Virus record (IMG/VR): IMGVR_UViG_3300032073_000024
Coordinates: 1 to 64,000 of that record
Length of the DNA: 64,000 nucleotides
Direction: 5' to 3' (one strand)
Source of the DNA: a virus
The translations under genes were made by a program, and so were the position numbers. The notes under the pieces are model-generated. The model ran no database searches. It worked only from the letters and a program-made list of their open reading frames with translations, and was not told where the DNA came from. This document shows positions 13,773 to 59,291 of the stretch, piece by piece. The number at the start of each line of letters is the position of its first letter. Positions within the stretch are counted from its first letter, which is position 1.

Positions 13773-13787
13773 TACTGTCACAGTATA
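13771..13787. promoter_or_regulatory. Operator palindrome 9
   Basis: AATACTGTCACAGTATA, overlapping the MoxR stop codon, before the helical cassette gene. Confidence 0.8.
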
Positions 13788-13821
13788 ATATAATTAATTA
13801 ACTAAATAACTAAACGCTACA

Positions 13822-24899: not shown

Positions 24900-25784
24900 A
24901 TGAAGAAAACAAAAACGCTACCACAAATGATCAGAGAGTATATCAACTGGAAAAGGTTGGGTGCTGCTGATAACACAATTAATGTCTATCAAAATTACTT
25001 AGACAAATTTTCCAACCATTGCTTCACAACAAAGCAGAACCCGTTGGATCATAACACGCTCCACTCTTTTCTTGTTTCTTGTAAAAGGAATACTAATAAA
25101 TCAAACGGAGAACTAGTTAAAGGAAGTACGCTTAATGCAATACTCACATGCTTGAAGTCTTTCTTTAAATACTTTCAAGAAAGCGGTCAAACAAATCTTA
25201 ATCCTGCATCAATGATACCTAGGTTTAAAGAGGAAGCCACAACTGTTGTTGGTTTCTCTCCTGATGAAGCAAAAGAATTACTTAAATCTAGTTATGATTC
25301 TCCTTACTCAGACTACTGGACTCCAATGATTATGCTTGGATGGTATTATGGAATGAGACTTGGAGATACAGCTTGCTTTAAAAGATCGTTCGTTAATGAA
25401 AAGAAAAAGCAGATAACCTTTATACCTATGAAGAGAAAGCGTAGAGAAATTATACTACCTTTAGTTAATGATGTAGGTTTAGCTTTGTCAAAGACTCCAG
25501 TTGAAAATGATATATACTATTTCCCACTAGCGCGTGATAGATATTACTTTCGCGGCACTCTAGATAAACAGTTCAAAGCTATAGTTAATCAAGCCAGCCT
25601 TGATAACTCTCTTACATTCCATTGCCTCCGTCACGGAGCGGCAACTCGTATGCTGAAGAATGGTGTAAGAACTACAACTATTACTGAAATTATAGGTTGG
25701 GATTCTCCAGCAATGTTGCAGCGTTATATAGATAGAGATGAAAAAGATATTGCTACTGCACTTGAAGGTAGTATTACTGTTTAA
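24900..25784 (+). CDS. int: Tyrosine recombinase / phage integrase
   Basis: 294 residues. N-terminal SAM-like core-binding domain (about 1-100, TLPQMIREYINWKRLGAADN). Catalytic domain: Arg in YYGMRLGD (about 152), Lys region KKKQITFIPMKRKRR, HCLRHGAATRML (His-x-x-Arg, about 241-244), GWDS (about 267) and the nucleophile Tyr in LQRYIDRDE (about 274). It catalyses site-specific integration and excision, so the phage is probably temperate. It starts 4 bases after an operator and converges on the giant gene with a 4-bp overlap of stops. No attachment site could be recognised. Confidence 0.9.
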   Translation: MKKTKTLPQMIREYINWKRLGAADNTINVYQNYLDKFSNHCFTTKQNPLDHNTLHSFLVSCKRNTNKSNGELVKGSTLNAILTCLKSFFKYFQESGQTNLNPASMIPRFKEEATTVVGFSPDEAKELLKSSYDSPYSDYWTPMIMLGWYYGMRLGDTACFKRSFVNEKKKQITFIPMKRKRREIILPLVNDVGLALSKTPVENDIYYFPLARDRYYFRGTLDKQFKAIVNQASLDNSLTFHCLRHGAATRMLKNGVRTTTITEIIGWDSPAMLQRYIDRDEKDIATALEGSITV

Positions 25785-28700
25785 ATATCAGGAGCCGGGG
25801 ATAATCCTTTAACCCTAACCTTCCTGTTCGGACTCATTTTTTTATCAGGTAGTAGAGTTCTCCTAGTAAAAGGCTCTTCTCCCTTATCCCAAATTCCATT
25901 AGGGCTGATACCAGATTCTATATAAAAATCATTAAACCTATCAAGTGTATCCATGATTTCTTTAAATTCTCCAGACCATTTACTCTCATCTTTATTCCAA
26001 CCATCTATCATGAAAGTTACAAAGTTTTTCCTTTGAAAGTCTTCCACGAACTCACTCCTTGTTGGGATAGTTCCCGCTTCAAGTTTATAATGAAGAGGAG
26101 TTTTTGCTCTAAGATGTTGGTTTAGTTTTCTTTGAGCGTCAACACGACCCAGCACTTCTTCATTTTTAGCAGCATCTGCTAAAAGTTCATTCATCATTAA
26201 CACTCTCAGTTCTTCTGCTCGTGCAAGGTCTCCCCTACCTATTGCTGACTGAAACGCTCTAACGTGTTCAGATATAGGTTTAATGTTAGAGATACTTGCT
26301 GCTAATGTTTGCCCTCTAAATACTTTAATATCATCTGGATCGTAATAACGGTTTATCGCGTTCATTACATTGCCGAATTTTTTCCATCCTTTTCCGTAAT
26401 CTGTTAGAGAATCAACTATATTCATAGCCAGAGGAACCATGCCTTTAGCTAATGATCTCATGCCATATGTTGGATCTTTAGTTACGGCAGTTTCTGCTAA
26501 GTATTTAGTTAGCACACTAGCTTTAGAGTAAAGCAAACTGCCGGGATGCATCATGCCTCTTGATGGGTCTCCACCAACTACAGCTTCAATCCAAGCCCCA
26601 GCCATTGGAACTGAACTAGTACCTAATCCAATTGCTGATCGTATAAAATCTTTTGCTTCTTTCTTGTCTGTTGGTAGTGACTTTTTGTTATCAGTCCCCA
26701 TAAGTCCATAAATCCAATTTAATATTGTTATTGCAAGAGTGCCTGCTCCATAGGCTGATGCCATAAATCCAAGCAACCATATAATTCCAGCAACAGACTG
26801 AACACTAGAGTCTTTTAAGTCTCTCTTCCTGCTTCTACCTAGCATAACATTCCCAAAATTCTGGATTGCGTTTGTACCCCAACCCAACAACGCCATTAAA
26901 GCATTAGCTGTTTGAGTTAACCTTGCCCACGCTGGTCGGTTACTAGGAGTTGCCGAGTTAGACTGAGTAACCCATCCTTCAGCAACATTGTTTCTTTGAA
27001 AGTCAGTAAGGAACTGTGCATCTTCTTCTCCACGCGCTCTTGCTTGGAGGTACGCCTTTGCTTCTTTCTGGAAATTAGTAACCCCGCCTTTTGCTAACAT
27101 GTTCAAAGTGTTATTAAAGGAAGCTTTATTAGCTCTAAATATATACAAGTACCTCCCAAGTAATTCCTCCTCTGATATGTCTTCGTTAAGATCATCTTCG
27201 TAATATTCTCTAGAATCATAAACCTTATCCAGTTGCCTTTGAAGATCGTTTACATGCTGTACTCCTAAATTCCATAGTTGAATGTTGCCGCTTATATCAC
27301 CAATCCTTGGAAAGATTGGCCTACCTATTAAAGATAGACCTGACTCAGCAAGACCCATCCCAGCGTTTAAACTTCTAACGGCTGCCTGAATAACTTCATT
27401 CTCTGTTTTATAAGAATTAATCCCGCTCCCTCCTGAAACTAAGTCCCCTAAGAAAGCTTCATTAGTTTCAATAGGGGTTATGGGCATATCAAGCCCACGT
27501 TCTGCAAGCATACGGTGTTCATGTATACGCATAGGCATATGCTGAAAAACCTCCTCAACCGCTGGAGCAAGGAACCCACCAATAGGGGCTATAACCCTAT
27601 GAACTCCTCTAGCTTTAATGAATCCATCTAATATAGCAGGGAATGATTTAAATATAAGGTCTGGTTTATCCCAGCTAAATTTAGGTTTAAAAATCCTCTT
27701 TCCTTTTACACTCTTTGTTAACTGAGTATCAACACCTACTGTGAATTTAACAGCAGAAGCTAAAGTAGATGCACCTAGTTTCCCTATGGATATAGGCCAC
27801 CTCATAAGTAATCCTTTAAGGAAAGCAGAAAACCCAGACTGACCTTGTGCCGCTGCTAGGTTAAACCCTCCAATCACACTAGCATCAGTACTGTTCTTAA
27901 CTACTGTATTAATAGCCATCAATGTTGATCCAACAACTGAGCTTTGCATTCTCTTATACCAAGCATTGTTTATCTCCAGCTTAGACCCTGCGCTTTTTGT
28001 TGAGTAAGCCTCTGAATATTGTTCTGATACTTCAAGAAGCTTTCTTCTCCAAAAATTTATCTCATCCATTGTGCCAATAAAGTTAGCGCCTTCACTAGCG
28101 TTCAACTTAAACTCTTTTTTAAGTTGCTTCTCAAGTTTATGTGACCCTCTTACATAACCTTCATTTATTAATTGTTGCCTTCTTTTCTTTACGCTTAAAT
28201 CCATTGCATCAAGATCGCGTTGTATCGCCTTGATTGAAATAATTACATTCTCAAGGGGCTTCGCGCTTCCCATTAAGGCAAACCTTTTAAGGTCTGATTG
28301 ATCTTTAAACCCATACTGATAAAAGTAATAAGGAGCATTTGCTTTCTTTCTAGCTTTAACAAACGGGCCTTCAGCTTTTAAGTCTATGTACTTGGTAGTT
28401 TGTTTTTGGGTTTCAGATGGGAGCCTTTCCCCGACAAGGGTGTTAAGTATATCCTTATACTCTGACAGTATAAGCTTCTTAATTGATGGGATATCCTTGC
28501 TGCTTCGCTTGGATAGTAAATCTAATACACTTTCTACACTGACTTTTTCTAGGCTTCCATCAGCAATTGAAGCCGCAGCTATTGCGTAGTACTGTTCCAG
28601 CTCACTGGGTTGAGTGATGAACTCAGGGTTCCTGTCTATAATAAAAGATAGTAATGCCTCTGGATGGCCTGCGAATATAGCATCAAAATCTATTGCTCCA

Positions 28701-31700
28701 AGTTCTGCTCCCTCGTTTAAATTAACCCTATCTTTGTAAAGCTCTAGAAAAGTTTTGGATTCATTACTGTATACGCGAGGCAAGAAAGTCTTCCCTCTTT
28801 TTAAAGGAAGCCTAACAATAGGAGCGCGTCCTTTTTCAGCGTCAATAATATACGTAGGAGATACAGACTTGTCTAAGTCTGCAATGCTTTGATTTAATTT
28901 GTAGGCTATGTCGGTTATCTTCCCTTCAAAATCCAGCAAAGCTATATCTTCCTTAGTAATTTCTTGGCCAGATACAAGCCTGTCACCAATATCTAAATTC
29001 CTTCCTCCCTCTTGATGTGATGCTCTGAGTTCGTTACCTACAGTTGTTTCCCATTCTTTAAACGTATCCTCTCTAGCCACCCCTGTGAAACTTGCATCTA
29101 ATCCGTGGCTTAAAGCAGCGGCTTTCATTTTATTCTTCCAAGCATCTCCGTATTCGTTTGCCCACGCCCCCATTCTTTGGAAGTATAAGTTGTGTCTTCT
29201 TACTAATTGCTTTGTAACTTCTACACTTCTGCCGGGAATATTATTCAATGTCTGATCTAGCACAGACAGTGAAAGCTTACTTGCAATAGCCCTGACGTTT
29301 TGTCTTGGGTGCATGACAAGTTCCGACATGTAGATGTTTTCTAGCATGGAATGCCAACCGCTATAGTACTCAAAGTAAGGATTACTTGGGCCATTCTCTG
29401 AAAGCCAGTGAGTAATTGCGTCATAAGCTTCACGCATCTTAGCAAGATGCTCATCTCCAGTGTCATCAGATAGTATTCTAACAGTAATAACTTTAGATTT
29501 TTTACCGAAGATTTCCGGCACAGGTATTACTAAAGTATTATTCTCTAGTTGAGTCTCTGCTCCGCGCTGGTCTGGCAGGACTGCCTCTATAAATACTGGA
29601 TCATCATTCTCATCTTTAGTCCTAAAAACTGGAGTCTCTATTGAATTAGTATCTTTGTTTAATCTAGCTAAGTAATCTTTAATCTCTTTATCATTTAAAA
29701 ATTTACCAGCAACTTGCCTTGCTTCATGTAACACTTGAAGCTCTTTAAATAAGCCATCAAGTTCCTTGTAGCTTTTTTGGAATAACAACCTTTGTCTTTC
29801 AGATTTCTTTGAATGGTCTACTACCTTTCTTGTTGCTTTAGCAATAGCTTCGGCTCGCACTTTAGGGTCTTTATGCTGCAACCCCTTCAATAAATCTTTC
29901 GCAAACTTCTGAACACCAGCTCCTTCAAGTTCCCCGTCCTCTTCAAAGACTAAAGCAAGTGCATTCTCTTGAAGGGATTTTCTAGTAGCCAATAACCCAG
30001 CAGCAAGTTGCCAACGCTTGTACCCTTTTGTTCCTTTAGCTGGTAGCATTGGAGTGTTAGGAGCTATCGCCCTCTTCACTGCATAAGCTTCAAGTATTTG
30101 ATCCGCTAATGCCGCAACATCACTTGCTGTAGCATTAGGATTAATCGTTAGCATTTCACTAAACAGATTAGACTTGGCAAGTACTCTTGCTATGGATGCT
30201 GCTTTGCCTTTTATATTAGCTGCGTCTACTTGGTTCTCTCTTAAAGTTTGTTCGTCTCCTGCTATCTCAAGGAGAATCCCTGATGCTCTCAAGTCAAGTC
30301 CTTCAGCAGCTAAAGCATTAACAGCAAACCTAAGTTCAGCAGCTATTTCAGTTTCAACTTCTCTTGATCTCTCTGCTTTATTAAATCTTTCATGGGCATT
30401 GTTGAGTAATGACTGAACCTTATCAGAATTAAGTACTTTAACTTGTTCTTGGTAGTTGGTTTCTATCCAGCGCATCTTTGATTGAAATTTCTTAAACAAC
30501 TGAAGGCTTACTAGTGCTAATGAATTAGCAAGCTCCTCCCTGCCTTCCTCCATGAACTTGTCATACTGTTCTTTATACTCTTTAGGGAGTACTGATTCAG
30601 CAGATATCTTTCCGATGTCGTCTGAAAAATTACGCAGCAACATTTTATACCCATCCTTGGATATATCTTTAGGCATGTGTTTCCTGAGAACCTTATCAAT
30701 AACAGAAACAGAAACAGCAGCTTGCCCCATAAGAATATCACTTGCCTCTTTGTTTCCAGAAACACTTAACACATTTAATGCTGACTCTAGTTTCTCTGCG
30801 CTCTCTAAAGGATTTATGCTTCCTGCATTTATTGCACTTCTGGTAAGAAGTCCTCCCGGCTTTGCTGCCCTATTAAAGTCTAACCCTTTACCAGTCTTCA
30901 GCATCTTCTCTACTTCACTGAAGAACTTGCGCTTCTCTCTTCGTGCAGCTACTGAGTCAACCCGAATTAAACTATTATCTAGTAATCCACTTACAATATC
31001 TAGCGCAGTTTCTAGACCTCTCTTAAAAATTCCTTCAGTGGATTGCTTGACTAAGTTACGGGCATAGAACTCATCAGGGTTAATGACATCATAAAGCAAA
31101 TCATCAATCTCATTTAATGCATCTTCTTGCTCTTGTGAAAGTGATGCTGAGATTTTACTTTGCGGATCAGGAGAAAATTCTCTAGCTGTTATTGCTGACT
31201 TAACTTGGTTGTTCTCAAATACAGCTATATTATTTCTACCAAACTCTTGTATGTTGTACCCATCAAACCCTGCATATTTTATGAACCTTGTGTAAAGTTC
31301 TATTGCTCCCCAATAATTTTTTTCAATATCAGGAAGGATAGCACTAACTAAATCTGCATCACTTTGAAAACTAAATCTTTTATCTGGGTCTGCTAATTCT
31401 AACCCAAGGCCAGCTTCTAGAAGTGCTTCTTTTTCTATTATCTGTTTTACCTGACCAACAGTTTCTACTCCAAACGCAACACTGAGATTATTAATAGCTT
31501 CATTTATCCGTGCTGATTCTTCTGCATAGGTATCTAGTTCTACTTGTATTGACTCTGGGCTATAGCCAAAGTCTTCAAGTTCTTGTATGTCTGGTTGCTT
31601 TTGATAGTTTAAAACATCCCGAAGTTTAGCTCCATCACTCCATCCTTTATCTGAATCAATTTCCCCTAGTAAGTATTTAGCCTCTGAAACAGCACGTTTA

Positions 31701-34700
31701 AGTGCAACTCCAAGTTGCTGTCTGTGATCTGGGTTTGATCCGTCAAATAAATTCTCTACCCTAATAAACGCAGGGTATATATTCATATTTGAAGAAAAGC
31801 TTTTGAGTTTAGCTTGGGCATTATCTCCGCCTAACATTAATGCTCGTTGTAGTACTTGATATGGAGAGTCTTCGTCAGTACTAGGCTCTGGGTTGCCAAG
31901 AAGCAACTGACCAAACACAGGATCAGGAGAAAAGAAATGCCCTATCCTCCTATTGTTATCTATCCTAACAGGCTCACTTAATCCTCCCTGTCTAGCTTCG
32001 TACCCTGCTAATTCATTAAACTGTTCAATGCTTCCATCAAAAGTAGTGGCATGAAAAAATATTAAAGGCTGACCACTTTCTGTAGTAAGGGAAGAATTGC
32101 CAAACCAATTTAAAAATTCTGGTGTATCAACTTGCGGCTTATCAATAAGGACGAGAGATTTGTCGTAATCTTTGATTGATGTACCACTACCAAATGATCC
32201 CCTCTCAAATGCGGCAACCGACCCTGCTATACTGTCATAGTATAAGGAACGATCATTAGGAATCTCACTAAGAGTAATCCCGTTTTTTGATGCTGCATTA
32301 GTTTTTATTCTTGCGTAATCAGCGGAGCTTAATTCCCCTGCATTCTTCTTAGCTTCAGCTACTACATCCAGTGCTGTTTGCAGTATTACTTTTCTCTTAC
32401 CTTCAGCTTTCTCTAGAAGCTTTTTAATTTTTTCTTCCCGATCCTCAAACGCTTTAAGCTGAAGTTTTTTAGCCTGCTTTCGGTATCTCTCAGGTAAAAG
32501 CTTTGCAGTAAAATGAGCTATCTCTTCAGCAACAACCTCTGGGTTTGCGCTGTTAGCAATTTTTGCAATATTAGTTAAAGCGTTGAATGTCCCATCAAAT
32601 GAAATCGTTTCATTACCATCTAAGTCTACGTTGCCTGTGATCTCTAGAGTAAGTAAAGCTAGTGTCTTCTCGTCTAGAACCTCAAGGAACTTATTGAACA
32701 CTCTCTTCTGATCTTCAGTAAGGCCATTGTCACCCCTATTGACTAGCTCTTTAATTTGCTTGGCTCCTTTAGCCTTCGGCATAACAGGGATACTGGATAC
32801 TAATGGATTACTTCTATGGTTTCTTATACTGCCAGCAAGTGCCGTCTTAATTGAAAATAAATTCTGATAAAAAACCTCTGGGTTTGCACTGAACCTCCTT
32901 GCAAATTTCATAGCCTTTTCCTGATCGGCTCTGGTCATTGTCTCTGGATTTACATTCAGGTTATCAAGTTGATTTATTGCAGCTATAGCTCTATTTCTTA
33001 CTATCTCATTTGAGCTTTGAGTAAGTTCTTCAAGCTGGTCAGCCTGTTCTTTAATGTATGCGTCAGCTTCCTTGTCTTCAAGTGTTTGTGTGCGTTGCCC
33101 TGCTTGATTAGCCGCTACAATATCTTCTTGTTGTTGAGCTTGTTCTTCTCTGTCTTTTTCTTGCTGGACTTGGGCGGGGTCAACTTCAAAATCTTCTGGA
33201 GCAAACTCTTCTAAAGCCTCTTCTCTTGTTTGCTCGGTTGTTGGCCTAAGCCTACCAGTGCCTAATGCCTGCCTGCCTTCATCAAAAGCAATTACACCTG
33301 CTCTATCTGCGTCATACTTTTCTCCAGCAGCCTGAAGTAATTTAAGAACAGCTACAGTTCTTATTGGTTTTGATGCATTGTTTTTACTTTTTAATGAGGC
33401 TGCCTCTTGTATAACTCCTGTTTCAATAGTTTCAGATTCACCTATTGCTCTCTTGTATAACTCCACATTAGATAAATTAGATAATGCTTTTAAGAAATGT
33501 TTACCTAGCTTAACCGGATCAATTACAGTAGCAGCTTTCACTAGTGAGCCATCCGGGTTTGTCACTTTAGCTGTATTAATAACTGCTCTTATCTGAGTTA
33601 AAGTAACTTGCCCTTCTTTTACTAGTGGTTTTAAAATTGATTGAACGCTTTTGTTTTTAATATTCTCCACAACCTTAACGGCAATCTCTTGTTGCGGAGC
33701 GGAATCTGATTTTGCTTTTTCTGTACGTGATTCAGTAGTTGGCTTTGTAATTTTCCATACGTTACCTTCTTCTTTATTCTGGTCGTTGGAAATAAATTCT
33801 TTAGTTGTTATGCGCTTGGGTATCCTTGCCCCAACTACTCTATCTTTAGAGTCATAAATAGTTTCTATTGCGCTTTGATCTACTATAGTAAACTCTTCAT
33901 TGAACTTAGGCTTACCAGCTTTTGATGTACCCAAGTAATACCCTACCCCCCAGCTTTTTGTGTTCTTATTATATTTAAGTACAGCTTCTTGTGGGTTCTC
34001 TTGCTTTAATGTGTACCCTAGCTTTATTTCTATTGGGCTGTCTTTTACTTGTTCGTCATTAACCCAGTTAAACTTATTACCAACTTTCTTTTTAACTGTA
34101 TTTGCTATTACATAATCAGTCTCTGTTTGTGTGGTAAGCTCTTCTGTAACAGGCTCTTCTTTTACCTGATCTGCAAGTTCAGGTGCGACTACTTCCTCGG
34201 CAACAGTGTCTTCTTTTAGTTCTCTCTCTTTAGATTTCTGTTCATTTTCTAATCTTATGTCTGCTCTACCTCTTGCAACACTTAGATTAAACTCTTGTGC
34301 TGTTAGACCTGATGCCTCTAATGCTGAAGTAGGAACAAGCCTATCTTGAAGTTCATTTAACTCTTCAGCTATATATTGTTCACGCTTTCTATCTAAGTTA
34401 GCTTGCTCAAGAATACTGTCACGTTGTTCTGGTGTTATCCCTTCAGCTTGCTTTGCTTCTCTTTGCTTCTGGTATTCCGCATATGCTTCATCTTTAGCAT
34501 CTAACTCTTTTTCATTTAAATCTTCATCATATACTACTGGTACATCTTCATCTGTTTCTACAGCTTCAGCTTCAGCTAAAACAGTTTCATTATTCTCAAT
34601 TATTTTTTGGAAAAGTTCTTCCGCTACCTCTTCAACTTGTTCTTCTGTAGGCTCTTCCCCTGTTATTTCTTTTAAGTTTTTCCTCGCTAGACCCCTGAAG

Positions 34701-36208
34701 CCTTCTTTGACTTCCTTTTTATCTTTTTTTAATTTCCTGTTACTTCTCCATATCTGAACTTTTGTGTCTGCATATTTCGGGAGGCTACCTATTCCAGTGA
34801 AAGTGCCACCCATTAACCCACCTAAAAGAAAAGACTTAATGCCTTCATCAACTACTTGTTTCCAAGTTTTGTCTGGGTTGTACGTCATGTACTGTATCAA
34901 GCTTTGAGCTAATGAATCAGAAAGTTCTTCCACCCCTTCAAATCCTGATTGCTTGAATGTGCTTTTTAATACATTGCTGACACTGCTCAAGCCTGTTGGA
35001 GTTTTTAATAAACTCTCCAATCCTGTTGCGCCAAAGACTGCAACAAGAGAAGCAGTTGCAGCACCAGATAATGCTGCTGGTAGTAATGCTTCCCCTGCTG
35101 AATTACTATAAGCAATATCTAGTATCTGATCTTCAGATAAATCAGGATTTACCTCTGTTAATGAATCAACTTTTTCTGAAGCATAAGTGTCAAGCGCATC
35201 TGAATATGTCCCAGCACCAGACCGTGTCCCATGAATTCCTGCCATTAAGCCTAAGCCGATTTTTCTTCTTAGGTTTTGACTGGCACGGTTAGCCAATCTA
35301 GTAACCGCTTTCTCACTTACTTCTCTTCCTAGTCTTGAGGCTCCATACTTTACAGCTTGTTTACCAATCTGACCAACTGCTAATCCAGTCCCCATAGTTC
35401 CAAGCATGATTGGAATTTCTTGAGCAATGGTTGTTCCTATTTCACCTCCAAGCCTAGCGGCTTCTGGGTCTGGAAAGTCTTCATAGCGGTCAGTAATTTT
35501 TTCTTTTACTATTCTCTCCGCTTCCTTTCTTTCTTTTACTGATTCAAGAAACTCATCTTCTAGTAAAGGTATAGCCTCATCTAGAGGGACTCCTGATGGA
35601 ATATTTGGGTTGAAATAAGAAAAGGGAGGTAGGGAAGAGGTTGGTAAGTTTATTGTTTCGTCCAGTAACATCCATTCTGGTAAGTTTTGGTCAGCCCATT
35701 CAACGGCTGCAAGGCCAAGACCCTTACCCCCTTGAACTACATTAGCTTTTATCTTATTGAAGGTAGCTCCTAAGCCCTCAAGCTTAGACTCGCCCTCTTC
35801 ATCTACTCCACTACTAAAATCAAAAGGAAGTTTTCTATAAAGACTTTCAGTTAAAGGCTCTTTCTCTTTCAGCCAAACACCTCTTTCCCCTAGCTCATTA
35901 ACCTCACTAAAGTCTTCTCCTGTTTCTGGATCAATGAAAGAACTTGGATCTGTGTTCCAAGTATTAACTAAATCTCTACCTTCCCAGAAAAAATCAGTCC
36001 CTGCTCCCCCGTATCCAGCAACATCTCCATGCGCTCCTCCTAAGAAAGAGCTTAACCCAAAATAACCATCATCTTGAGAGTCTTCTCCTTGCCGTATGTT
36101 ATACATATCAACAAGAAGGTCTCGTCGTTTATCTTTGTCGGGATTTAATGGGTCGTTTTCTTCATAAAGACTGTCCCAGTAATCATCATCTAATCCAAAA
36201 TAACCCAT
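25781..36208 (-). CDS. Giant polyvalent internal virion protein (3475 aa) with ADP-ribosyltransferase-like domain
   Basis: A single 10.4-kb frame, about 16% of the window. Hydrophobic, Gly/Ala-rich segments lie at about 260-480 (TTIAQEIPIMLGTMGTGLAV; LLPAALSGAATASLVAVFGA). Residues about 500-1200 are charged coiled-coil-like. Near 1230 VVAEEIAHFTAKLLPERYR resembles a zincin helix but lacks the first His. About 1385-1675 is an ART-like polyvalent module: FFHATTFDGSIEQF, IGHFFSPDP, NIYPAFIRVENLFDG, YAGFDGYNIQEFG, AVFENNQVKSA. The C-terminal part has membrane-like helices near 3125-3160. It probably travels in the capsid and is ejected into the host. Three operator-like palindromes or variants lie nearby or inside. 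Confidence 0.85.
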   Translation of the reverse strand: MGYFGLDDDYWDSLYEENDPLNPDKDKRRDLLVDMYNIRQGEDSQDDGYFGLSSFLGGAHGDVAGYGGAGTDFFWEGRDLVNTWNTDPSSFIDPETGEDFSEVNELGERGVWLKEKEPLTESLYRKLPFDFSSGVDEEGESKLEGLGATFNKIKANVVQGGKGLGLAAVEWADQNLPEWMLLDETINLPTSSLPPFSYFNPNIPSGVPLDEAIPLLEDEFLESVKERKEAERIVKEKITDRYEDFPDPEAARLGGEIGTTIAQEIPIMLGTMGTGLAVGQIGKQAVKYGASRLGREVSEKAVTRLANRASQNLRRKIGLGLMAGIHGTRSGAGTYSDALDTYASEKVDSLTEVNPDLSEDQILDIAYSNSAGEALLPAALSGAATASLVAVFGATGLESLLKTPTGLSSVSNVLKSTFKQSGFEGVEELSDSLAQSLIQYMTYNPDKTWKQVVDEGIKSFLLGGLMGGTFTGIGSLPKYADTKVQIWRSNRKLKKDKKEVKEGFRGLARKNLKEITGEEPTEEQVEEVAEELFQKIIENNETVLAEAEAVETDEDVPVVYDEDLNEKELDAKDEAYAEYQKQREAKQAEGITPEQRDSILEQANLDRKREQYIAEELNELQDRLVPTSALEASGLTAQEFNLSVARGRADIRLENEQKSKERELKEDTVAEEVVAPELADQVKEEPVTEELTTQTETDYVIANTVKKKVGNKFNWVNDEQVKDSPIEIKLGYTLKQENPQEAVLKYNKNTKSWGVGYYLGTSKAGKPKFNEEFTIVDQSAIETIYDSKDRVVGARIPKRITTKEFISNDQNKEEGNVWKITKPTTESRTEKAKSDSAPQQEIAVKVVENIKNKSVQSILKPLVKEGQVTLTQIRAVINTAKVTNPDGSLVKAATVIDPVKLGKHFLKALSNLSNVELYKRAIGESETIETGVIQEAASLKSKNNASKPIRTVAVLKLLQAAGEKYDADRAGVIAFDEGRQALGTGRLRPTTEQTREEALEEFAPEDFEVDPAQVQQEKDREEQAQQQEDIVAANQAGQRTQTLEDKEADAYIKEQADQLEELTQSSNEIVRNRAIAAINQLDNLNVNPETMTRADQEKAMKFARRFSANPEVFYQNLFSIKTALAGSIRNHRSNPLVSSIPVMPKAKGAKQIKELVNRGDNGLTEDQKRVFNKFLEVLDEKTLALLTLEITGNVDLDGNETISFDGTFNALTNIAKIANSANPEVVAEEIAHFTAKLLPERYRKQAKKLQLKAFEDREEKIKKLLEKAEGKRKVILQTALDVVAEAKKNAGELSSADYARIKTNAASKNGITLSEIPNDRSLYYDSIAGSVAAFERGSFGSGTSIKDYDKSLVLIDKPQVDTPEFLNWFGNSSLTTESGQPLIFFHATTFDGSIEQFNELAGYEARQGGLSEPVRIDNNRRIGHFFSPDPVFGQLLLGNPEPSTDEDSPYQVLQRALMLGGDNAQAKLKSFSSNMNIYPAFIRVENLFDGSNPDHRQQLGVALKRAVSEAKYLLGEIDSDKGWSDGAKLRDVLNYQKQPDIQELEDFGYSPESIQVELDTYAEESARINEAINNLSVAFGVETVGQVKQIIEKEALLEAGLGLELADPDKRFSFQSDADLVSAILPDIEKNYWGAIELYTRFIKYAGFDGYNIQEFGRNNIAVFENNQVKSAITAREFSPDPQSKISASLSQEQEDALNEIDDLLYDVINPDEFYARNLVKQSTEGIFKRGLETALDIVSGLLDNSLIRVDSVAARREKRKFFSEVEKMLKTGKGLDFNRAAKPGGLLTRSAINAGSINPLESAEKLESALNVLSVSGNKEASDILMGQAAVSVSVIDKVLRKHMPKDISKDGYKMLLRNFSDDIGKISAESVLPKEYKEQYDKFMEEGREELANSLALVSLQLFKKFQSKMRWIETNYQEQVKVLNSDKVQSLLNNAHERFNKAERSREVETEIAAELRFAVNALAAEGLDLRASGILLEIAGDEQTLRENQVDAANIKGKAASIARVLAKSNLFSEMLTINPNATASDVAALADQILEAYAVKRAIAPNTPMLPAKGTKGYKRWQLAAGLLATRKSLQENALALVFEEDGELEGAGVQKFAKDLLKGLQHKDPKVRAEAIAKATRKVVDHSKKSERQRLLFQKSYKELDGLFKELQVLHEARQVAGKFLNDKEIKDYLARLNKDTNSIETPVFRTKDENDDPVFIEAVLPDQRGAETQLENNTLVIPVPEIFGKKSKVITVRILSDDTGDEHLAKMREAYDAITHWLSENGPSNPYFEYYSGWHSMLENIYMSELVMHPRQNVRAIASKLSLSVLDQTLNNIPGRSVEVTKQLVRRHNLYFQRMGAWANEYGDAWKNKMKAAALSHGLDASFTGVAREDTFKEWETTVGNELRASHQEGGRNLDIGDRLVSGQEITKEDIALLDFEGKITDIAYKLNQSIADLDKSVSPTYIIDAEKGRAPIVRLPLKRGKTFLPRVYSNESKTFLELYKDRVNLNEGAELGAIDFDAIFAGHPEALLSFIIDRNPEFITQPSELEQYYAIAAASIADGSLEKVSVESVLDLLSKRSSKDIPSIKKLILSEYKDILNTLVGERLPSETQKQTTKYIDLKAEGPFVKARKKANAPYYFYQYGFKDQSDLKRFALMGSAKPLENVIISIKAIQRDLDAMDLSVKKRRQQLINEGYVRGSHKLEKQLKKEFKLNASEGANFIGTMDEINFWRRKLLEVSEQYSEAYSTKSAGSKLEINNAWYKRMQSSVVGSTLMAINTVVKNSTDASVIGGFNLAAAQGQSGFSAFLKGLLMRWPISIGKLGASTLASAVKFTVGVDTQLTKSVKGKRIFKPKFSWDKPDLIFKSFPAILDGFIKARGVHRVIAPIGGFLAPAVEEVFQHMPMRIHEHRMLAERGLDMPITPIETNEAFLGDLVSGGSGINSYKTENEVIQAAVRSLNAGMGLAESGLSLIGRPIFPRIGDISGNIQLWNLGVQHVNDLQRQLDKVYDSREYYEDDLNEDISEEELLGRYLYIFRANKASFNNTLNMLAKGGVTNFQKEAKAYLQARARGEEDAQFLTDFQRNNVAEGWVTQSNSATPSNRPAWARLTQTANALMALLGWGTNAIQNFGNVMLGRSRKRDLKDSSVQSVAGIIWLLGFMASAYGAGTLAITILNWIYGLMGTDNKKSLPTDKKEAKDFIRSAIGLGTSSVPMAGAWIEAVVGGDPSRGMMHPGSLLYSKASVLTKYLAETAVTKDPTYGMRSLAKGMVPLAMNIVDSLTDYGKGWKKFGNVMNAINRYYDPDDIKVFRGQTLAASISNIKPISEHVRAFQSAIGRGDLARAEELRVLMMNELLADAAKNEEVLGRVDAQRKLNQHLRAKTPLHYKLEAGTIPTRSEFVEDFQRKNFVTFMIDGWNKDESKWSGEFKEIMDTLDRFNDFYIESGISPNGIWDKGEEPFTRRTLLPDKKMSPNRKVRVKGLSPAPDI
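28456..28472. promoter_or_regulatory. Operator palindrome variant 15 (intragenic)
   Basis: TATACTCTGACAGTATA, one core mismatch, inside the giant gene. Confidence 0.5.
32228..32244. promoter_or_regulatory. Operator palindrome variant 16 (intragenic)
   Basis: TATACTGTCATAGTATA, one core mismatch, inside the giant gene. Confidence 0.55.
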
Positions 36209-45418: not shown

Positions 45419-46381
45419 TTATACTGTCACAGGATAAGGTTCTCCTAGCCCTAGCATTCTAGATTTAGGTAGGAATGTATCACATATAAAACCCATAAGA
45501 ATCTTATGAGTTTCTTTTGTTGATCTATTAAGGCATTCATAAAAAGCCCTAACTAAATTATAAGATATATATTGTTGAGCTTCCTTTGGCTTTAAGTGGG
45601 CGTGAAAGCTAACCATCTTTTTTCTATTTAAATAAATATCATCTCCAGCAGATATTCCAAGTTCAGTTAGGAGTTGATCTTTATTGCTGTCCACATTAGA
45701 GAAAGATGATTTCCATAATCCATAGTTATGAGCTTCACTGAATAAAGAGGTGTCATATTTTTTATACACCCTGCCTAAACATTCCTGCTCTAAAAAATTG
45801 GAGTCGTTCCTAAATGCATTTGCCCAGAACTCAGGGAACTCTGGATCACTGGAGTAAACATATCCTGCATTATAAATACCATATGCTTGGCAGGCTTCTT
45901 CAGTGATTTCATGTGGACTTAAAGAAACTGGATGCTTGAAATTACAAGTAACTGGATTAACCATGATGATATCAGCATCTAAAAACAAAGTGTTACCACT
46001 TCCTTTTATTGCTTTGGACATGATGTCCATCTTTAAACTTCCTTCAGCAGGGTTCCATAAGTCCCCCCAACTTGCACAGTCAGGCCATATGTCTCCCAAG
46101 TTTTCTGGAAACTCTTTACGTCTTTCATTGAGAAGTCCGTCTGGAATTTTAGTTACATCTACATTAGATGGAATATCTTCACCTAAACATTCTTCCCCTA
46201 GATCATCAGTTAATAAGTAAATTTTTTTATCAGAATGAATGCGTATACTATTCATAAGTAACGCAGCTTCATACCCATGAATGCCAGTAGCTACTGTGCA
46301 GTAAGACTCAAGATTAGATGGGCCTTCATCAGATTGTCTAGGAAGGCTTTTAAAATGATCCGCTTGAGTATTAAGTTCCAT
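45419..46381 (-). CDS. GT8-like glycosyltransferase
   Basis: 320 residues. YCTVATGIHGYEAALLMNSI and KKIYLLTDD give the nucleotide-sugar-binding start, and GNTLFLDADIIMVNPVTCNF (about 130-150) carries the DxD metal/UDP-sugar motif. YGIYNAGYVYS and the C-terminal MVSFHAHLKPKEAQQY region fit the rest of a GT-A fold. In a virion gene block it may glycosylate capsid or tail proteins, or modify the host surface. Its last residues PVTV and the TAA stop are encoded by an operator copy (45420-45436). Confidence 0.7.
   Translation of the reverse strand: MELNTQADHFKSLPRQSDEGPSNLESYCTVATGIHGYEAALLMNSIRIHSDKKIYLLTDDLGEECLGEDIPSNVDVTKIPDGLLNERRKEFPENLGDIWPDCASWGDLWNPAEGSLKMDIMSKAIKGSGNTLFLDADIIMVNPVTCNFKHPVSLSPHEITEEACQAYGIYNAGYVYSSDPEFPEFWANAFRNDSNFLEQECLGRVYKKYDTSLFSEAHNYGLWKSSFSNVDSNKDQLLTELGISAGDDIYLNRKKMVSFHAHLKPKEAQQYISYNLVRAFYECLNRSTKETHKILMGFICDTFLPKSRMLGLGEPYPVTV
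45420..45436. promoter_or_regulatory. Operator palindrome variant 19
   Basis: TATACTGTCACAGGATA at the end of the glycosyltransferase gene, 3 bases before the 45416 start on the minus strand. Confidence 0.65.
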
Positions 46382-48870
46382 TAGGTGGGAGTTATCTCTG
46401 ATTCAAAGTTATCTGTAAAGACGGTTTCAGTTGTTGTCCAAGTGTCTCCTGAGCTTGTTCCTTTTTGTAAAGTAACTTCGGCAATCACAACACCATATGG
46501 TAAAGGAGCTAAAAACTCATCTGCCCCGCTTGTTAAATATCTTGAATCTTCATTCCTGTCACCAGCTACAACAATCCCTTCGTCTGCTATGAACCCGCTG
46601 AAGTCAGATATTTTTAGTGGGTCTTCTGATGTCCCTTTGATATTAACACATCCTTTATCCTTAAATATTCTCTCCCTTTCCGTCTTAGGGATTTCGTAAC
46701 CAGAAAAGGTTGGGTCTTTTAAAACTTTTTGGAAAGAGTAAGGGTATTGTTCTATTCTGATCTTGCCTTCTTCTCCAGTTACTTTAGATGGTAATGGAAT
46801 AACTAAATCATAAATTCCTTTTTCTGGGTCAATTTCCTGCGTGAATTCATATAGCACACCGTCAATCCTTCTGGTTACAAGTATTGGTATGTTGTTAATA
46901 ATTCCCCCATCAACAATCCCATCTGCATCAGGATATGTAGCCCTTACATCATTTTCTAATTCTCCCACCTGAGTCCCACCAATACTCACCCTAATAGAAC
47001 TTCCTAGTTTAACCCCATTTCTTCCATGCTGATTTGTAAAAGCTGCTTTATTCTTAATCTTGTTACCTCCAACTTTTAGAACTAACCTATACTTTTCCCC
47101 TGCGTTAAATTTAAATTCAGTTTGAGTTTCTATGCCTCCAAAGTTGTGGTCTATAGGTGCTGTAATTACTTGGCACTTCTTATTTTCGTAATCGTCATGA
47201 TAGTAACTTTTTAGCTCCCACTGATCTCCGTCTTGTGTTTGGTTTTCTTCTGAAAGTAATGAGTACCCAGTGTTACCTATTAAACTTACATACATTCCTG
47301 CATTAGGATGCGTTGTGTTGAATAAATCTTTACCCATAAGATCAACACTGTTCTTACATACATTCCAGTTTGTTAAAGTTGTACTGATGCCAAATTGGTC
47401 ACGTAATTGAGGCGTGTCTCCTTTACCTAACCCAGTCGTTGGGATGTAAAAACAAGCCCTGTTATTTCCTGTGCTGCCCCCAGTATTGTCTTTACATATT
47501 GTTTGAAGAATACCACTAAACAAACCCTTCAAAGCATCGTGATTTGTTGGGAAGAAAGTTAATGAAGTCGCACTAGAAGTATCGTTTTGATAACAATTTG
47601 CAATTAGTTTTAAATAGTTTTCTACTGTGACAGTAGCCCCGCTAGGGGAACCTCCAGAACAACGCTTAATAGATTTTGTTGAGTCTAACATAAACCCAAC
47701 CACAGCAATCATTGCATCATGCCCTAAAGTTTTAAGGCCAGACCCTGCCATTTTATCTCCTCTTATTTCCGCAGCAATACTGATAGGATCAGGAGCGCAA
47801 ACATTTTCGTAACCGTCAGTAAGTAGGATAATAAGCTTTCTTGGCCAAGCAGAATTTCCAGAAAGAGCTACACCAGTTGGATTTTCAAGATGGGCAGCTT
47901 TATTTGTAGCTGTTGTTCTTGCTCCTTCTGATTGGATTATATCATAACGTTCGTTTGACCCTTTAAGTAAATCGTAAGCCATCTCCAAACCACCACCTAT
48001 ACTTGTCCAACATCCTCCACCTTCAGGGCCAGTTCCTCCATCACAATCTTTTGAAACAACAAAGCCGGGGTCATCAACTAAAGATAAAGCGGCAGTTTTA
48101 GTGTCAACAAAATCACTAACAAGAGTGACTCTGCTTTCAGGTTCGCCATCTCCTCCATCTCCTGCATAGCTTACAAAAGCCATCCGGTCTATTTCTTTAC
48201 CTACAGTAGAATTAACAGAGCTGCCTCCAGATGTGACTATCTTGTCGTCTTCACTATCCCAAAGCTTTGAGTTTTTAATAAGTTGCCTGCAAGCTTCACG
48301 GGCTGCTGACATTCTAGTTTCATTTCCTGAGAAAGCTGAATCTATTTTCAGCATTGAAGCACTCCTATCTAAAACAACAACAATGTCAATTGCACTACCT
48401 TGACAGTTTTGCTTAATTGATACAGTAGAGTTTGCACTTAGCTGGTGTGTATATTTTTTAGTTTCACCATTAATAATAATTGAAGGAGTATAAGTGGCAG
48501 TGACTTTTACTTGCGTATCAAGATCAGTCTCTCCTGCTTTAAACTCTCCATTCCCTTTGCTTTCTAAAATAACAGACTTAGCTGAAGACCAAGCTGCATC
48601 TTCTGTTACTTTAATGGCTTTAATGGTTCCATCTGTGTATTTTAATTTCAGATAGGCATTAAAATTAGCGGTTCCTGATGAACCAATATTTACTCCATTT
48701 GGGTCTCTAACTTCAAGCCCATCAATAACTGGAGCATTCGTGCAAAAGTTTTCACCCATGATGGCTGCATACAATGGATCAGATAAGCAACGTGCATCTT
48801 CGGTGTCTTCAATAACCACCGGAACTTTTTCCCCAATGCAGGGAACTTTATTTATATTATCAAACTTCAT
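46381..48870 (-). CDS. Virion-associated von Willebrand factor A protein (829 aa)
   Basis: An N-terminal Ig-like part (about 40-150) is followed by a vWA domain at about 160-460: IDIVVVLDRSASMLK carries the intact DxSxS MIDAS motif (about 168-172), and RKLIILLTDGYENVC holds the second metal residue (about 351). The C-terminal half is beta-rich (RLVLKVGGNKIKNKAAFTNQ, IRVSIGGTQVGELENDVRA). Such vWA domains bind protein ligands through a metal ion. Located between the phosphoesterase-fused structural gene and the glycosyltransferase, it is probably a decoration or adhesion protein. A diverged operator lies inside (47621-47637). Confidence 0.75.
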   Translation of the reverse strand: MKFDNINKVPCIGEKVPVVIEDTEDARCLSDPLYAAIMGENFCTNAPVIDGLEVRDPNGVNIGSSGTANFNAYLKLKYTDGTIKAIKVTEDAAWSSAKSVILESKGNGEFKAGETDLDTQVKVTATYTPSIIINGETKKYTHQLSANSTVSIKQNCQGSAIDIVVVLDRSASMLKIDSAFSGNETRMSAAREACRQLIKNSKLWDSEDDKIVTSGGSSVNSTVGKEIDRMAFVSYAGDGGDGEPESRVTLVSDFVDTKTAALSLVDDPGFVVSKDCDGGTGPEGGGCWTSIGGGLEMAYDLLKGSNERYDIIQSEGARTTATNKAAHLENPTGVALSGNSAWPRKLIILLTDGYENVCAPDPISIAAEIRGDKMAGSGLKTLGHDAMIAVVGFMLDSTKSIKRCSGGSPSGATVTVENYLKLIANCYQNDTSSATSLTFFPTNHDALKGLFSGILQTICKDNTGGSTGNNRACFYIPTTGLGKGDTPQLRDQFGISTTLTNWNVCKNSVDLMGKDLFNTTHPNAGMYVSLIGNTGYSLLSEENQTQDGDQWELKSYYHDDYENKKCQVITAPIDHNFGGIETQTEFKFNAGEKYRLVLKVGGNKIKNKAAFTNQHGRNGVKLGSSIRVSIGGTQVGELENDVRATYPDADGIVDGGIINNIPILVTRRIDGVLYEFTQEIDPEKGIYDLVIPLPSKVTGEEGKIRIEQYPYSFQKVLKDPTFSGYEIPKTERERIFKDKGCVNIKGTSEDPLKISDFSGFIADEGIVVAGDRNEDSRYLTSGADEFLAPLPYGVVIAEVTLQKGTSSGDTWTTTETVFTDNFESEITPT
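47621..47637. promoter_or_regulatory. Operator palindrome 20 (intragenic)
   Basis: TCTACTGTGACAGTAGC keeps the core but not the outer bases; inside the vWA virion gene. Confidence 0.45.
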
Positions 48871-50720
48871 TAGTTAGTTACTGTTCTTTTGGTGGATGTA
48901 TCAGACAAAGCTTTAGTTAAAGTGTAAGTATCTATTGTGGTTCCTGCCTTATCAATAAACTCAAACTTCAAAGTAGTTCCATCTACGGTTCCTTTAATAG
49001 CCCCATTCCCATTTGCTGCGCTGTGAAATTTCTCTGAAGTATAACCATTTGGTAATGTAGCACCGCTTCCACGGAGAGGCGCACCGCCTGCCCCATTGAC
49101 TAGGTATCTGAAATCGTTTGCGTCTTTAATTCTTTCATAGTTATGAGCATGACCAGAGATAACAACATCAGCACCCATTGCAGGAAAATCCCAACGCATA
49201 TCTGTATCACCGGGGCCATGCCCTCCACTAGCAGTCTCAGATGAGTAAGGTGAATTATGAAAGTAAACCACTTTCCAATGTGATGAGCTATTACCAAGCT
49301 TTGACTCCAGCCACTCATGCTGCCCTCCAGTAATCCCAAGACCAAGCTTTGCGTTGTAAACACTGTTATCAGTTCTCTTGTTAGAGAACAGGCAGAAGAA
49401 ATGGATCGGGCCTTTAACAAAATCGTAATACTCTTCATTGTTAGGAAGAGTGAAATAGTTTTTATAGTGAGCTAGTCCTGCATCTGTTGTGCCATAAGCT
49501 TCAATAATATCATGGTTTCCTATTGAGGGGAAAAACCTATTACCAGTTGTTGCATTAGATGTACTTGTGTAACCATGCAACCCAGACTGACCATATGGGA
49601 ATATGAAATCTGAGTACCACTGACCTACGTTAGTATCTAAATCTGTAATAGTAGTTTGGTCTCCACCAGTAGCTCCATAACTATTATCTCCTGTTGTTAT
49701 AATAAACTCTGGAGACCAACCCTTAACTAAGTCTGCAACTGCACTAGCATTAGTTCCATCATAAGCAGTTCCAGAGCCTCCAGTTGATGCGCCATAATCC
49801 CCAATAACACCAAAAGTAAAACTAACATCTACAGCAGCGTCAGCAGCTAATGTAGTAGTTGCAGCTTCTGTTGTAGCAGTAGTTGTGGTAGTAACATTTA
49901 ATGCTTCATTGAATCTTTGGTTTCTTCTTTGAGCTAATATGTCATAAGCCTCTGGGCAGAAGAACGTCTTTTTGACTTCTGTTTGCTTTTTACATTCATG
50001 AATCAAATCACCCATTGCAGTATCAAAGTCCATGCTCATATACTTGTAACGCTCATAGTCGTTATCAAAGTCACGGGCATACTCCCTTTGAACATATAAC
50101 TTAACAGCCCTTTTAAAATCAATGTCTTCAATAACTGCATCGTCCAATGAATACCTAGTCTTCACACCGTCCCACTCAACAACAATAACCTCATCAGAAT
50201 TAATCCAAGGAGATATGTAGATACGGTTTCTGTCTATAGCCCATTGACCAATCACCGCTCTTCCGTGCTTGTTAGTAGTTAAGGTTTTTGTTGTGCCGCT
50301 ACGTGTAACTCTAAAATCAGAATCTTCTTCTGGGTATTTGAATCCCATAGGAAGAGGATTTTTGTCTAAGTTTCTAGGAGGGTAAACCATAGATAAAAGC
50401 TTGAGGTTGTTACACTCAAGCTGATCAAGGCTTACTTGTGTGAATAAGGCTGGGTAAACTTCGTCCCCCTCCTTATCAAGCACAGTATATACTTTGTTAA
50501 TACGGCCCTTGGGCGCATCAATAACAGTCTTCCCTCCTTGAAAATAGGTGGAACACTGCGGGTATCTATTAATATTTCTAGACTGAAGGCATGGAACATA
50601 CCGCTGGAGGTGAGTTACTGCCGCCTCAAAACTTTTATGTATGGGCGCAACAAGGTTTTCTGGAACCCCTTCAGGCCAGATGTCGCTTCGCAACTCTGTT
50701 ACCAGTTCGGTAAATCTCAT
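48870..50720 (-). CDS. Structural (head-tail adaptor-like) protein fused to a metallophosphoesterase
   Basis: 616 residues in two parts. Residues 1-280 (MRFTELVTELRSDIWPEGVP...HLQRYVPCLQSRNIN) resemble a head-tail connector/adaptor protein. A Thr/Ala linker (about 283-300) leads to a calcineurin-like, purple-acid-phosphatase-type domain with all five blocks: VIGDYG (about 308), GDNSYG (about 345), GNHD (about 403), HNSPYS (about 487) and GHAHNYER (about 524). The domain hydrolyses phosphate mono- or diesters in its family. A virion-borne phosphatase could release phosphate from host surface polymers or scavenge phosphate; this is inference. Confidence 0.75.
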   Translation of the reverse strand: MRFTELVTELRSDIWPEGVPENLVAPIHKSFEAAVTHLQRYVPCLQSRNINRYPQCSTYFQGGKTVIDAPKGRINKVYTVLDKEGDEVYPALFTQVSLDQLECNNLKLLSMVYPPRNLDKNPLPMGFKYPEEDSDFRVTRSGTTKTLTTNKHGRAVIGQWAIDRNRIYISPWINSDEVIVVEWDGVKTRYSLDDAVIEDIDFKRAVKLYVQREYARDFDNDYERYKYMSMDFDTAMGDLIHECKKQTEVKKTFFCPEAYDILAQRRNQRFNEALNVTTTTTATTEAATTTLAADAAVDVSFTFGVIGDYGASTGGSGTAYDGTNASAVADLVKGWSPEFIITTGDNSYGATGGDQTTITDLDTNVGQWYSDFIFPYGQSGLHGYTSTSNATTGNRFFPSIGNHDIIEAYGTTDAGLAHYKNYFTLPNNEEYYDFVKGPIHFFCLFSNKRTDNSVYNAKLGLGITGGQHEWLESKLGNSSSHWKVVYFHNSPYSSETASGGHGPGDTDMRWDFPAMGADVVISGHAHNYERIKDANDFRYLVNGAGGAPLRGSGATLPNGYTSEKFHSAANGNGAIKGTVDGTTLKFEFIDKAGTTIDTYTLTKALSDTSTKRTVTN

Positions 50721-50722
50721 GT

Positions 50723-51163
50723 TTAATCTTCAGTTTTTGTAGCAGCTTTACGCTTTCCTACTTTTGGTTTGGAATCTTCTGGGAGGGTTTTTTCTTTTGC
50801 TTGTCCTTCAACTGCGGCAGCAGCAGGCTCTTTAGCCCCCACAGCATTTTTTGCCACGGTCTTGGATCGTCGTAATCCGTCTGCTTTGATTTCTTCTCTC
50901 CATAGCGGCTCGGATGGACTGGATTGATTCTTTTTTTTTAAACGCTCATACTCTTCTTTAGTTCCTTTAGATACCCCATACATTCCATCTAAAGGCTCAA
51001 CCAGTTTATTCATATCGTCATCAACTATTGCGTAGCCGATTGGAACACCTTCCGGTCTGCCTAAATCCTCAGTGGGAAGAAGTATCTTTTCAGGACTCTT
51101 GGCAAGATTGATCTTATTCATAGGGGACTCTTGCCTCCAATAATGCTTTTTTGGACTAGCCAT
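50723..51163 (-). CDS. Hypothetical basic protein (146 aa)
   Basis: MASPKKHYWRQESPMNKINL, then a folded-looking region (LPTEDLGRPEGVPIGYAIVD, LDGMYGVSKGTKEEYERLKK) and a Lys/Ala-rich tail (KPKVGKRKAATKTED). It follows the capsid gene after a terminator and precedes the adaptor gene, a usual place for a head-completion protein. Function not shown. Confidence 0.55.
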   Translation of the reverse strand: MASPKKHYWRQESPMNKINLAKSPEKILLPTEDLGRPEGVPIGYAIVDDDMNKLVEPLDGMYGVSKGTKEEYERLKKKNQSSPSEPLWREEIKADGLRRSKTVAKNAVGAKEPAAAAVEGQAKEKTLPEDSKPKVGKRKAATKTED

Positions 51164-57818: not shown

Positions 57819-59291
57819 ATGCCGCTTGATGCTAGTGGATGCTGGTATCCATCAATCAGCCCAAAGCAGCTTGAGATATTCAACTGCACAAAAAGATACC
57901 TATTAGTTAGTGGGCCAAGATACTCTTCTAAAACAATTGGCGTACTCCACCGATTAGTAAGACATTGCTGGGAAACCAAAGGTGGGCGAGTTGGTATATT
58001 CTGTAAAACCATACGTAACGCAAAGTCTGGTGTTTGGTCTGATTTGATAGACCTTATACTGCCTGAATGGGAGGCAAACTTACAAGGATTCAAGATCACT
58101 GTTCCTCCAAAAGTTGATGGAGTCACTAAGATGCATTACTTGCGCGTATCTAATATGCACGGGAATGAAACAGAAATACAACTACATTCTTTAGATGTTG
58201 ATCACGACATTGAAGAGAAGATTAAAGGAACTAGGTTTTCTCTTATATTCTTTTCAGAGCTTTCAAACTTTAAAGACATGTGCGTGTTTACAATATCTAA
58301 AGGCCAGCTCCGCTTACCGGGGCTTGCCTACATGTCTCACCAATGGATAGGGGATACGAACCCAGCAGAAGAGGGAACAAACTCATGGATATATAAGCTT
58401 TGGTATGAAGAACCAAACAAAGAAGACCATCCAGATCCTGAGTATGCAGAGCAATTCTCTATAATAGAATCCATGATTGACGATAATCCGTACTTATCTG
58501 AATACGACAAGAAAGATTTGATTGCCACATTCCGTGGAGATCCTGAGATGTATGATAGATATGTTCTTGGGAAGTGGACAGCCTCTTCAACAAACGCACA
58601 TTTCGGGAAAGTATTCAGAGTGGATACCCATGTAGTTGGTAACACAGACAGCCCTATTCAAGATGAATGGGAAGTAATCCTGCCTACAGAAAACTGCACT
58701 GAGCTTATAGGGGGTTGGGATTTAGGAGACAGGAACCATGCGTTTCATATTCTAGAAAAAGTAGACACACTCCAAGGAATTAGATGGACTGTGTTAGATG
58801 AGCTTATTGTCTTACATCAAGATGTTTCTTTAGAGGACTTTACTGGGGAAGCTATGGAAAGAATTGAAAAACTAGAAGAGCATATAGGTAATAAAGTTAG
58901 ATGGACTCACTGGTCTGACACATCATCAATGGTTAGGTACAGAGCAAGCGCAAATTCTTACGATCATAGAGTAGTTGCGGCTGCAAGCGGTGGGAGAATA
59001 AATCTAATTGGCGCACCTAAGTTTGCAGGATCAGTTAGGCAGAGAGTAAAACTACTTAAAGACTTACTAATGCAAAACAGATTGCACATATCAGCAAACT
59101 GCCACGGAACAATTGATATGTTCAGGTACTTAAAGAGAGGTAGTAGTGTTGGAAGATACGTTTCTAACGACAACAACAAGCACAGTTTTGACTCACTAAG
59201 CTATGCTTTAATTGGCGAAATGTCTGCCGACCTTGAAATTTCCAGCGATCCGACCACCGGAAAAATCGGCTTAACTTCCGTCCCACTTTAA
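57819..59291 (+). CDS. terL: Terminase large subunit
   Basis: 490 residues. The ATPase has a Walker A variant SGPRYSSKT (31-39) and Walker B SLIFFSE (141-147), followed by a coupling motif region (KGQLRLPGLAYMSHQWIGDT). The nuclease domain starts with GGWDLGDRNHAFHI (Asp near 300), and later acidic residues include the DSLSYALIGE end (about 465). It pumps and cuts DNA at the portal. It is the only plus-strand gene among the structural genes, with convergent and divergent neighbours; no promoter is visible in the 31-bp gap, so it must be transcribed from within the antisense of the neighbouring genes. Confidence 0.9.
   Translation: MPLDASGCWYPSISPKQLEIFNCTKRYLLVSGPRYSSKTIGVLHRLVRHCWETKGGRVGIFCKTIRNAKSGVWSDLIDLILPEWEANLQGFKITVPPKVDGVTKMHYLRVSNMHGNETEIQLHSLDVDHDIEEKIKGTRFSLIFFSELSNFKDMCVFTISKGQLRLPGLAYMSHQWIGDTNPAEEGTNSWIYKLWYEEPNKEDHPDPEYAEQFSIIESMIDDNPYLSEYDKKDLIATFRGDPEMYDRYVLGKWTASSTNAHFGKVFRVDTHVVGNTDSPIQDEWEVILPTENCTELIGGWDLGDRNHAFHILEKVDTLQGIRWTVLDELIVLHQDVSLEDFTGEAMERIEKLEEHIGNKVRWTHWSDTSSMVRYRASANSYDHRVVAAASGGRINLIGAPKFAGSVRQRVKLLKDLLMQNRLHISANCHGTIDMFRYLKRGSSVGRYVSNDNNKHSFDSLSYALIGEMSADLEISSDPTTGKIGLTSVPL

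Follow-up and report, generated by a model that had tools for sequence, protein, structure and literature searches.

A probable head-tail adaptor fused to a purple-acid-phosphatase-like domain in uncultured phages

Can a phage carry a phosphatase as part of the connector that joins its head to its tail? This question is raised by a single long gene in a 64,000-nucleotide stretch of virus DNA (IMG/VR record IMGVR_UViG_3300032073_000024), hereafter called the window. An earlier note on this DNA had described the gene product as a structural domain of ~280 residues, joined by a Thr/Ala linker to a phosphoesterase resembling purple acid phosphatases (PAPs), and had proposed that an active phosphatase is thereby placed on the virion. 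The features relevant to this proposal are collected in Table 1.

Table 1. Features of the fusion gene and its surroundings (window coordinates)
Feature	Position	Strand	Basis
Big_2-like region and VWA domain (MIDAS-type DRSAS), likely functional partner	46381..48870	-	Family profile matches L073 ORF
Adaptor-PAP fusion gene, 616 aa (adaptor assignment probable)	48870..50720	-	ORF call, Pfam
PAP-like domain, aa 300-616	48873..49823	-	Pfam, PDB sequence and profile searches, Foldseek
PAP block V, GHAH (H524, H526)	49143..49154	-	Ligand table
PAP block IV, YFHN (H488)	49254..49265	-	Ligand table
PAP block III, GNHD (N402, H403)	49509..49520	-	Ligand table
PAP block II, GDNSY (D345, Y348)	49677..49691	-	Ligand table
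PAP block I, GDYG (D308)	49791..49802	-	Ligand table
Thr/Ala-rich linker, aa 273-299	49824..49904	-	Composition; no in-frame start codon 241-344
N-terminal domain, aa 1-272, probable portal-tail adaptor	49905..50720	-	AlphaFold, Foldseek PDB, BFVD, SU10 gp11 synteny
Conserved 146-aa ORF flanked by the fusion gene and the probable major capsid gene	50723..51163	-	Conservation in relatives
Probable major capsid protein, 640 aa	51235..53157	-	Position and conservation; no family match
Probable scaffold, 520 aa	53208..54770	-	Position only
Probable portal, 767 aa	54986..57289	-	Position; very weak match to annotated putative portal
Terminase large subunit	57819..59291	+	phrog_2 E 1.7e-26; PF04466 E 9.7e-8

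The earlier note had named a gene model comprising two proteins as grounds for abandoning its proposal, and this model is ruled out at the DNA level. The fusion ORF begins with an ATG and continues uninterrupted for 616 codons, and its stop codon shares one base with the ATG of the next ORF (TAATG). No in-frame ATG, GTG or TTG is present among codons 241 through 344, and therefore a second protein would have no internal start, which leaves proteolysis as a possible way for the two halves to be separated. The predicted linker is likewise evident, as 18 of the 28 residues beginning at position 273 are Thr or Ala. A dN/dS value of ~0.05 is obtained for both halves when the window is compared with its relative L001. 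This value for the PAP half, together with the existence of full-length homologues, argues that the fusion gene is not a product of chance. Because dN/dS is saturated for distant pairs, purifying selection is established for close pairs only, and a rate test for the L005-L004 pair gives an outcome that varies with the outgroup.

The C-terminal half resembles PAPs in both sequence and fold. Pfam Metallophos matches residues 302-528 (E 9.4e-11), and in the PDB the fusion protein is closest in sequence to the PAP/TRAP enzymes of rat and pig (E 3e-7). Comparison of a family profile with the PDB retrieves 17 sequences at E<=0.01 (best 5.4e-15), which are PAP/TRAP proteins except for GAP50 and a diphosphonucleotide phosphatase. 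Similarly, Foldseek ranks pig PAP at the top of the PDB matches to the full model (1.3e-12), and 17 of the top 18 structures are PAPs, the remaining one being GAP50. All seven metal ligands are present in the window protein (D308, D345, Y348, N402, H488, H524 and H526), including the Tyr of block II, and H403 corresponds to the catalytic-type His. Thus, the description of a phosphoesterase in which every metal-ligand block is visible proved correct.

The N-terminal domain is harder to place. Its AlphaFold model, which is of low confidence (pLDDT 53), has terminal helices that flank a beta-rich middle. When this model is compared with the PDB by using Foldseek, chains from phage portal-tail, neck, tail or connector complexes account for 19 of the top 20 matches, although not every chain is identified in the titles of the entries. 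The sources include phages A4, B2, GP4, KHP30, SU10, Carin 1, P1 and phicrAss001, as well as HRP29, T7, Moo19, P-SCSP1u and PhiM1. T7 tail adaptor protein gp11 is the title of the entry at rank 14, and a profilin occupies rank 20. The best of these matches has an E value of 7.7e-3 (prob 0.99), and none reaches 0.001. BFVD matches of the N-terminal half include tail tubular proteins and head-to-tail adaptor proteins. Searches of Pfam and PHROGs with the domain return chance-level scores and no family, and profiles built from 9 and 11 relatives have no credible match among PDB sequences. Alignment by hhalign of this domain from 11 relatives with T7 gp11, SU10 gp11 and the separate adaptor of L073 (see below) also yields nothing (prob under 1%), and the adaptor assignment is therefore one of fold and synteny. 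Because there is no sequence match to an adaptor family, we class the domain as adaptor-like and place it outside PF24175.

Synteny provides the second line of evidence. Genes in the window are arranged in the order probable portal, scaffold, major capsid protein, 146-aa ORF and fusion gene, whereas in phage SU10 the order is portal, small ORF, scaffold, major capsid protein, small ORF and adaptor gp11. The fusion gene thus occupies the position of SU10 gp11 within the head-tail module, with the window portal, scaffold and major capsid genes themselves assigned by position. Fold and gene position together indicate that the N-terminal domain is probably of the portal-tail (head-tail) adaptor type. 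The structural domain proposed in the earlier note is therefore upheld by predicted fold and by gene position, and a match in sequence is absent.

Several other genes in the window may also be mentioned. A phage integrase family gene is located at 24900-25784 (+) (E 2.3e-19), and so this phage may be temperate. A giant ORF of 3475 aa at 25781-36208 (-) has no family match above the cut-off, and consecutive genes at 12627-16208 (+) encode AAA ATPase-like, DUF3150 and DUF2201 (putative metallopeptidase and VWA-like) proteins. Within the tail gene cluster, a 320-aa protein encoded at 45419-46381 (-) carries a glycosyltransferase-like LFLDADI motif and has no Pfam match; the more distant relatives L077 and L082 carry GT4-type glycosyltransferases near the equivalent position.

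Relatives of the fusion gene were gathered from IMG/VR and represent about a dozen distinct examples, with copies in L015 and L006 running off contig ends. The N-terminal domain runs into PAP in L001-L005, L014, L016-L018, L053-L056, L071, L077, L082 and L117. The sole exception among the full-length copies of this domain examined is L101, wherein DUF5977 repeats occupy the place of PAP (L101:5098-7272) although a related downstream gene is kept. L077 shares about 33-36% identity with the window in both halves, and its record carries a terminase that is 42% identical to that of the window. Searches of phage records with the whole fusion protein, the major capsid protein, the L073 and L101 adaptors or the L073 fusion yield no match, and searches with PAP halves yield partial matches only (about 25-32% identity).

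Bacterial PAPs were also found, the closest of which are 37-40% identical to the phage PAP in the best segments and derive from Hymenobacter, Ca. Aquidulcis, Ignavibacteria, Sumerlaeia and Phycisphaerae; a shorter PAP fragment from Zixibacteriota is matched as well. The Hymenobacter protein carries a T9SS sorting domain and is therefore probably secreted. A bacterial PAP relative, L049:2262-3029, has several conserved positions altered (D to N, H to R and H to D). A tree of PAP sequences has a long branch and weak support, and neither separates one acquisition from several (L077 versus the others) nor dates the acquisition.

We tabulated eight active-site positions (the seven ligands and the catalytic-type His) for 13 sequences. 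The seven ligands are intact in the window, L003, L001, L004, L018, L014, L016, L071 and L077, as well as, beyond these 13, in L002 and L017, and they look complete when read directly from the sequences of L082 and L117. In contrast, Gly or Ala stands in place of the Tyr in two lineages, L053/L054 and L055/L056 (tabulated for L053, L055 and L056, with L054 matching L053). L005 carries N, D, M, D, R, H, Q and H at the eight positions, and thus has lost four of seven ligands and the catalytic-type His, yet its reading frame is still open. These losses in L005 and in the two Tyr-lacking lineages imply that activity is not required in every lineage. They also favor an alternative wherein the PAP fold on the adaptor is employed chiefly for binding or structure rather than for catalysis, and its surviving metal sites are leftovers or bind ligands, in the manner of GAP50 of Plasmodium. 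The exchange of PAP for DUF5977 repeats in L101 is in keeping with such a role, as is the appearance among the fold matches of GAP50 itself (3tgh), a PAP-like membrane anchor (PMC8949495) that sets a precedent for structural use of this fold. However, GAP50 is a eukaryotic membrane protein, unlike the phage fusion, and acid phosphatase activity has also been reported for it (as cited in PMC8949495). Moreover, most lineages keep all seven ligands, even those that have diverged farthest (L077, L082 and L117, at ~1/3 identity), which argues against a mainly non-catalytic function. We consider that alternative unlikely, albeit one to be taken seriously.

Two other explanations appear to us less credible. 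The N-terminal domain might be some other virion protein rather than a portal adaptor, and its fold matches might be an artefact of a poor model, as would be consistent with the low pLDDT and with the missing sequence link to adaptor families. Chance matches would be expected to be mixed, whereas the structures retrieved come almost entirely from connector-region complexes of many phages, and the gene sits where the SU10 adaptor gene does. A non-adaptor identity is therefore improbable. The earlier note also suggested that the enzyme could mobilize phosphate in poor environments. Under such a nutrient role, phosphate would be released to the infected cell or its surroundings. Marine phages are known to carry genes for phosphate acquisition, and a related bacterial PAP looks secreted, both of which lend some weight to this role. 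However, PAP is joined to what is probably a structural protein, of which each particle would carry few copies, and the record of the window holds this single copy. We judge a nutrient function to be very improbable, and among the roles put forward it ranks last in plausibility for a PAP that would be fixed to the particle; action at the host surface, in concert with the VWA protein, fits better.

Evidence for such a partner comes from the gene immediately downstream. The VWA match is weak in the window copy and clear in the copies of L018, L014 and L082. In a second phage group (L073-L076), PAP, Big_2 and VWA domains reside within one ORF. The L073 ORF is 774 aa long (Pfam PAP 1.3e-14, Big_2 1.5e-9 and VWA 1.1e-15), and L073 also encodes a separate 232-aa SU10_adaptor protein (9.7e-10). 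Its PAP portion aligns with the fusion family by hhalign (E 2.8e-54), and its full PAP-Big_2-VWA ORF is matched by the family profile of the window neighbor. Because the genes adjoin in one group and are merged into one polypeptide in another, this arrangement suggests that the PAP and VWA products work together.

On balance, we favor the interpretation that the gene encodes the head-tail adaptor of a phage whose tail is probably short, and that this adaptor displays a surface phosphoesterase. The earlier note's interpretation stands in its probable adaptor-type domain, ligand-complete PAP and single gene, and the presence of the enzyme in mature virions, its outward exposure, its catalysis and its substrate are matters of inference. 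Because adaptor and PAP form one chain, the virion would probably display phosphatase copies around its neck. Specifically, the N-terminal domain would form a ring beneath the portal, perhaps of 12 copies by analogy with SU10, whose adaptor gp11 is a dodecamer located between portal and nozzle (PMC9509320). The C-terminal embracing loop of the SU10 adaptor is wedged into the portal (PMC9509320), and so a C-terminal PAP would need another route out if the same arrangement held here. One further helix and the linker would have to lead PAP outward, and at the neck the flexible linker would then display the PAP-like phosphoesterase with its predicted binuclear metal centre. There, the likeliest targets of the enzyme during adsorption would be host-surface polymers or molecules that bear phosphate, and it would work together with the Big_2-like/VWA protein encoded alongside as a single unit.

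A broader proposal, which we offer tentatively and consider rather doubtful, is that the adaptor in this uncultured phage clade carries a slot for swappable modules, filled in most cases by a neck phosphatase ring that joins with VWA to modify host-surface phosphate at entry. Tail fibres and spikes account for most of the virion enzymes known to clear a path to the host. An enzyme that is borne on the adaptor, exchangeable (as in L101) and linked to VWA would add a phosphoesterase to the entry enzymes of virions, and would point to phosphate-bearing surface polymers as a target for entry. Furthermore, nature provides a series of active sites from intact to eroded, which makes the importance of catalysis directly testable.

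PAP-like or metallophosphatase genes have been noted in other phages. Phage Rowlf carries one of unknown function (PMC12352085), and that of phage P1312 is predicted to encode a secreted protein (PMC4569894); the available text of these reports describes no adaptor fusion. A literature search that paired head-to-tail adaptors with phosphatases, with most subscription journals outside its scope, yielded no paper. The PAP half shares its fold and seven metal ligands with mammalian PAP (TRAP, 1ute/1qhw) and plant PAPs, and the family profile matches the mammalian enzyme across most of the domain (E about 5e-15). It differs from these enzymes in its low identity (~18% in Foldseek alignments), in its attachment to a probable adaptor, and in the extra segment that most phage family members carry after block I. 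The adaptors T7 gp11, SU10 gp11 and KP32 TTPA (SU10_adaptor, PF24175) have helices around an inserted beta-rich region, as predicted for the N-terminal domain, and their genes follow the major capsid gene as the fusion gene does. Unlike the fusion protein, they are about 190-250 aa long and lack a phosphoesterase. A further point of comparison is KP32 tail tubular protein A, an adaptor-type protein reported to have a dual, enzymatic function (PMC5440376). Its reported activity is on polysaccharide and lies within the adaptor itself, whereas the fusion protein has a PAP domain appended.
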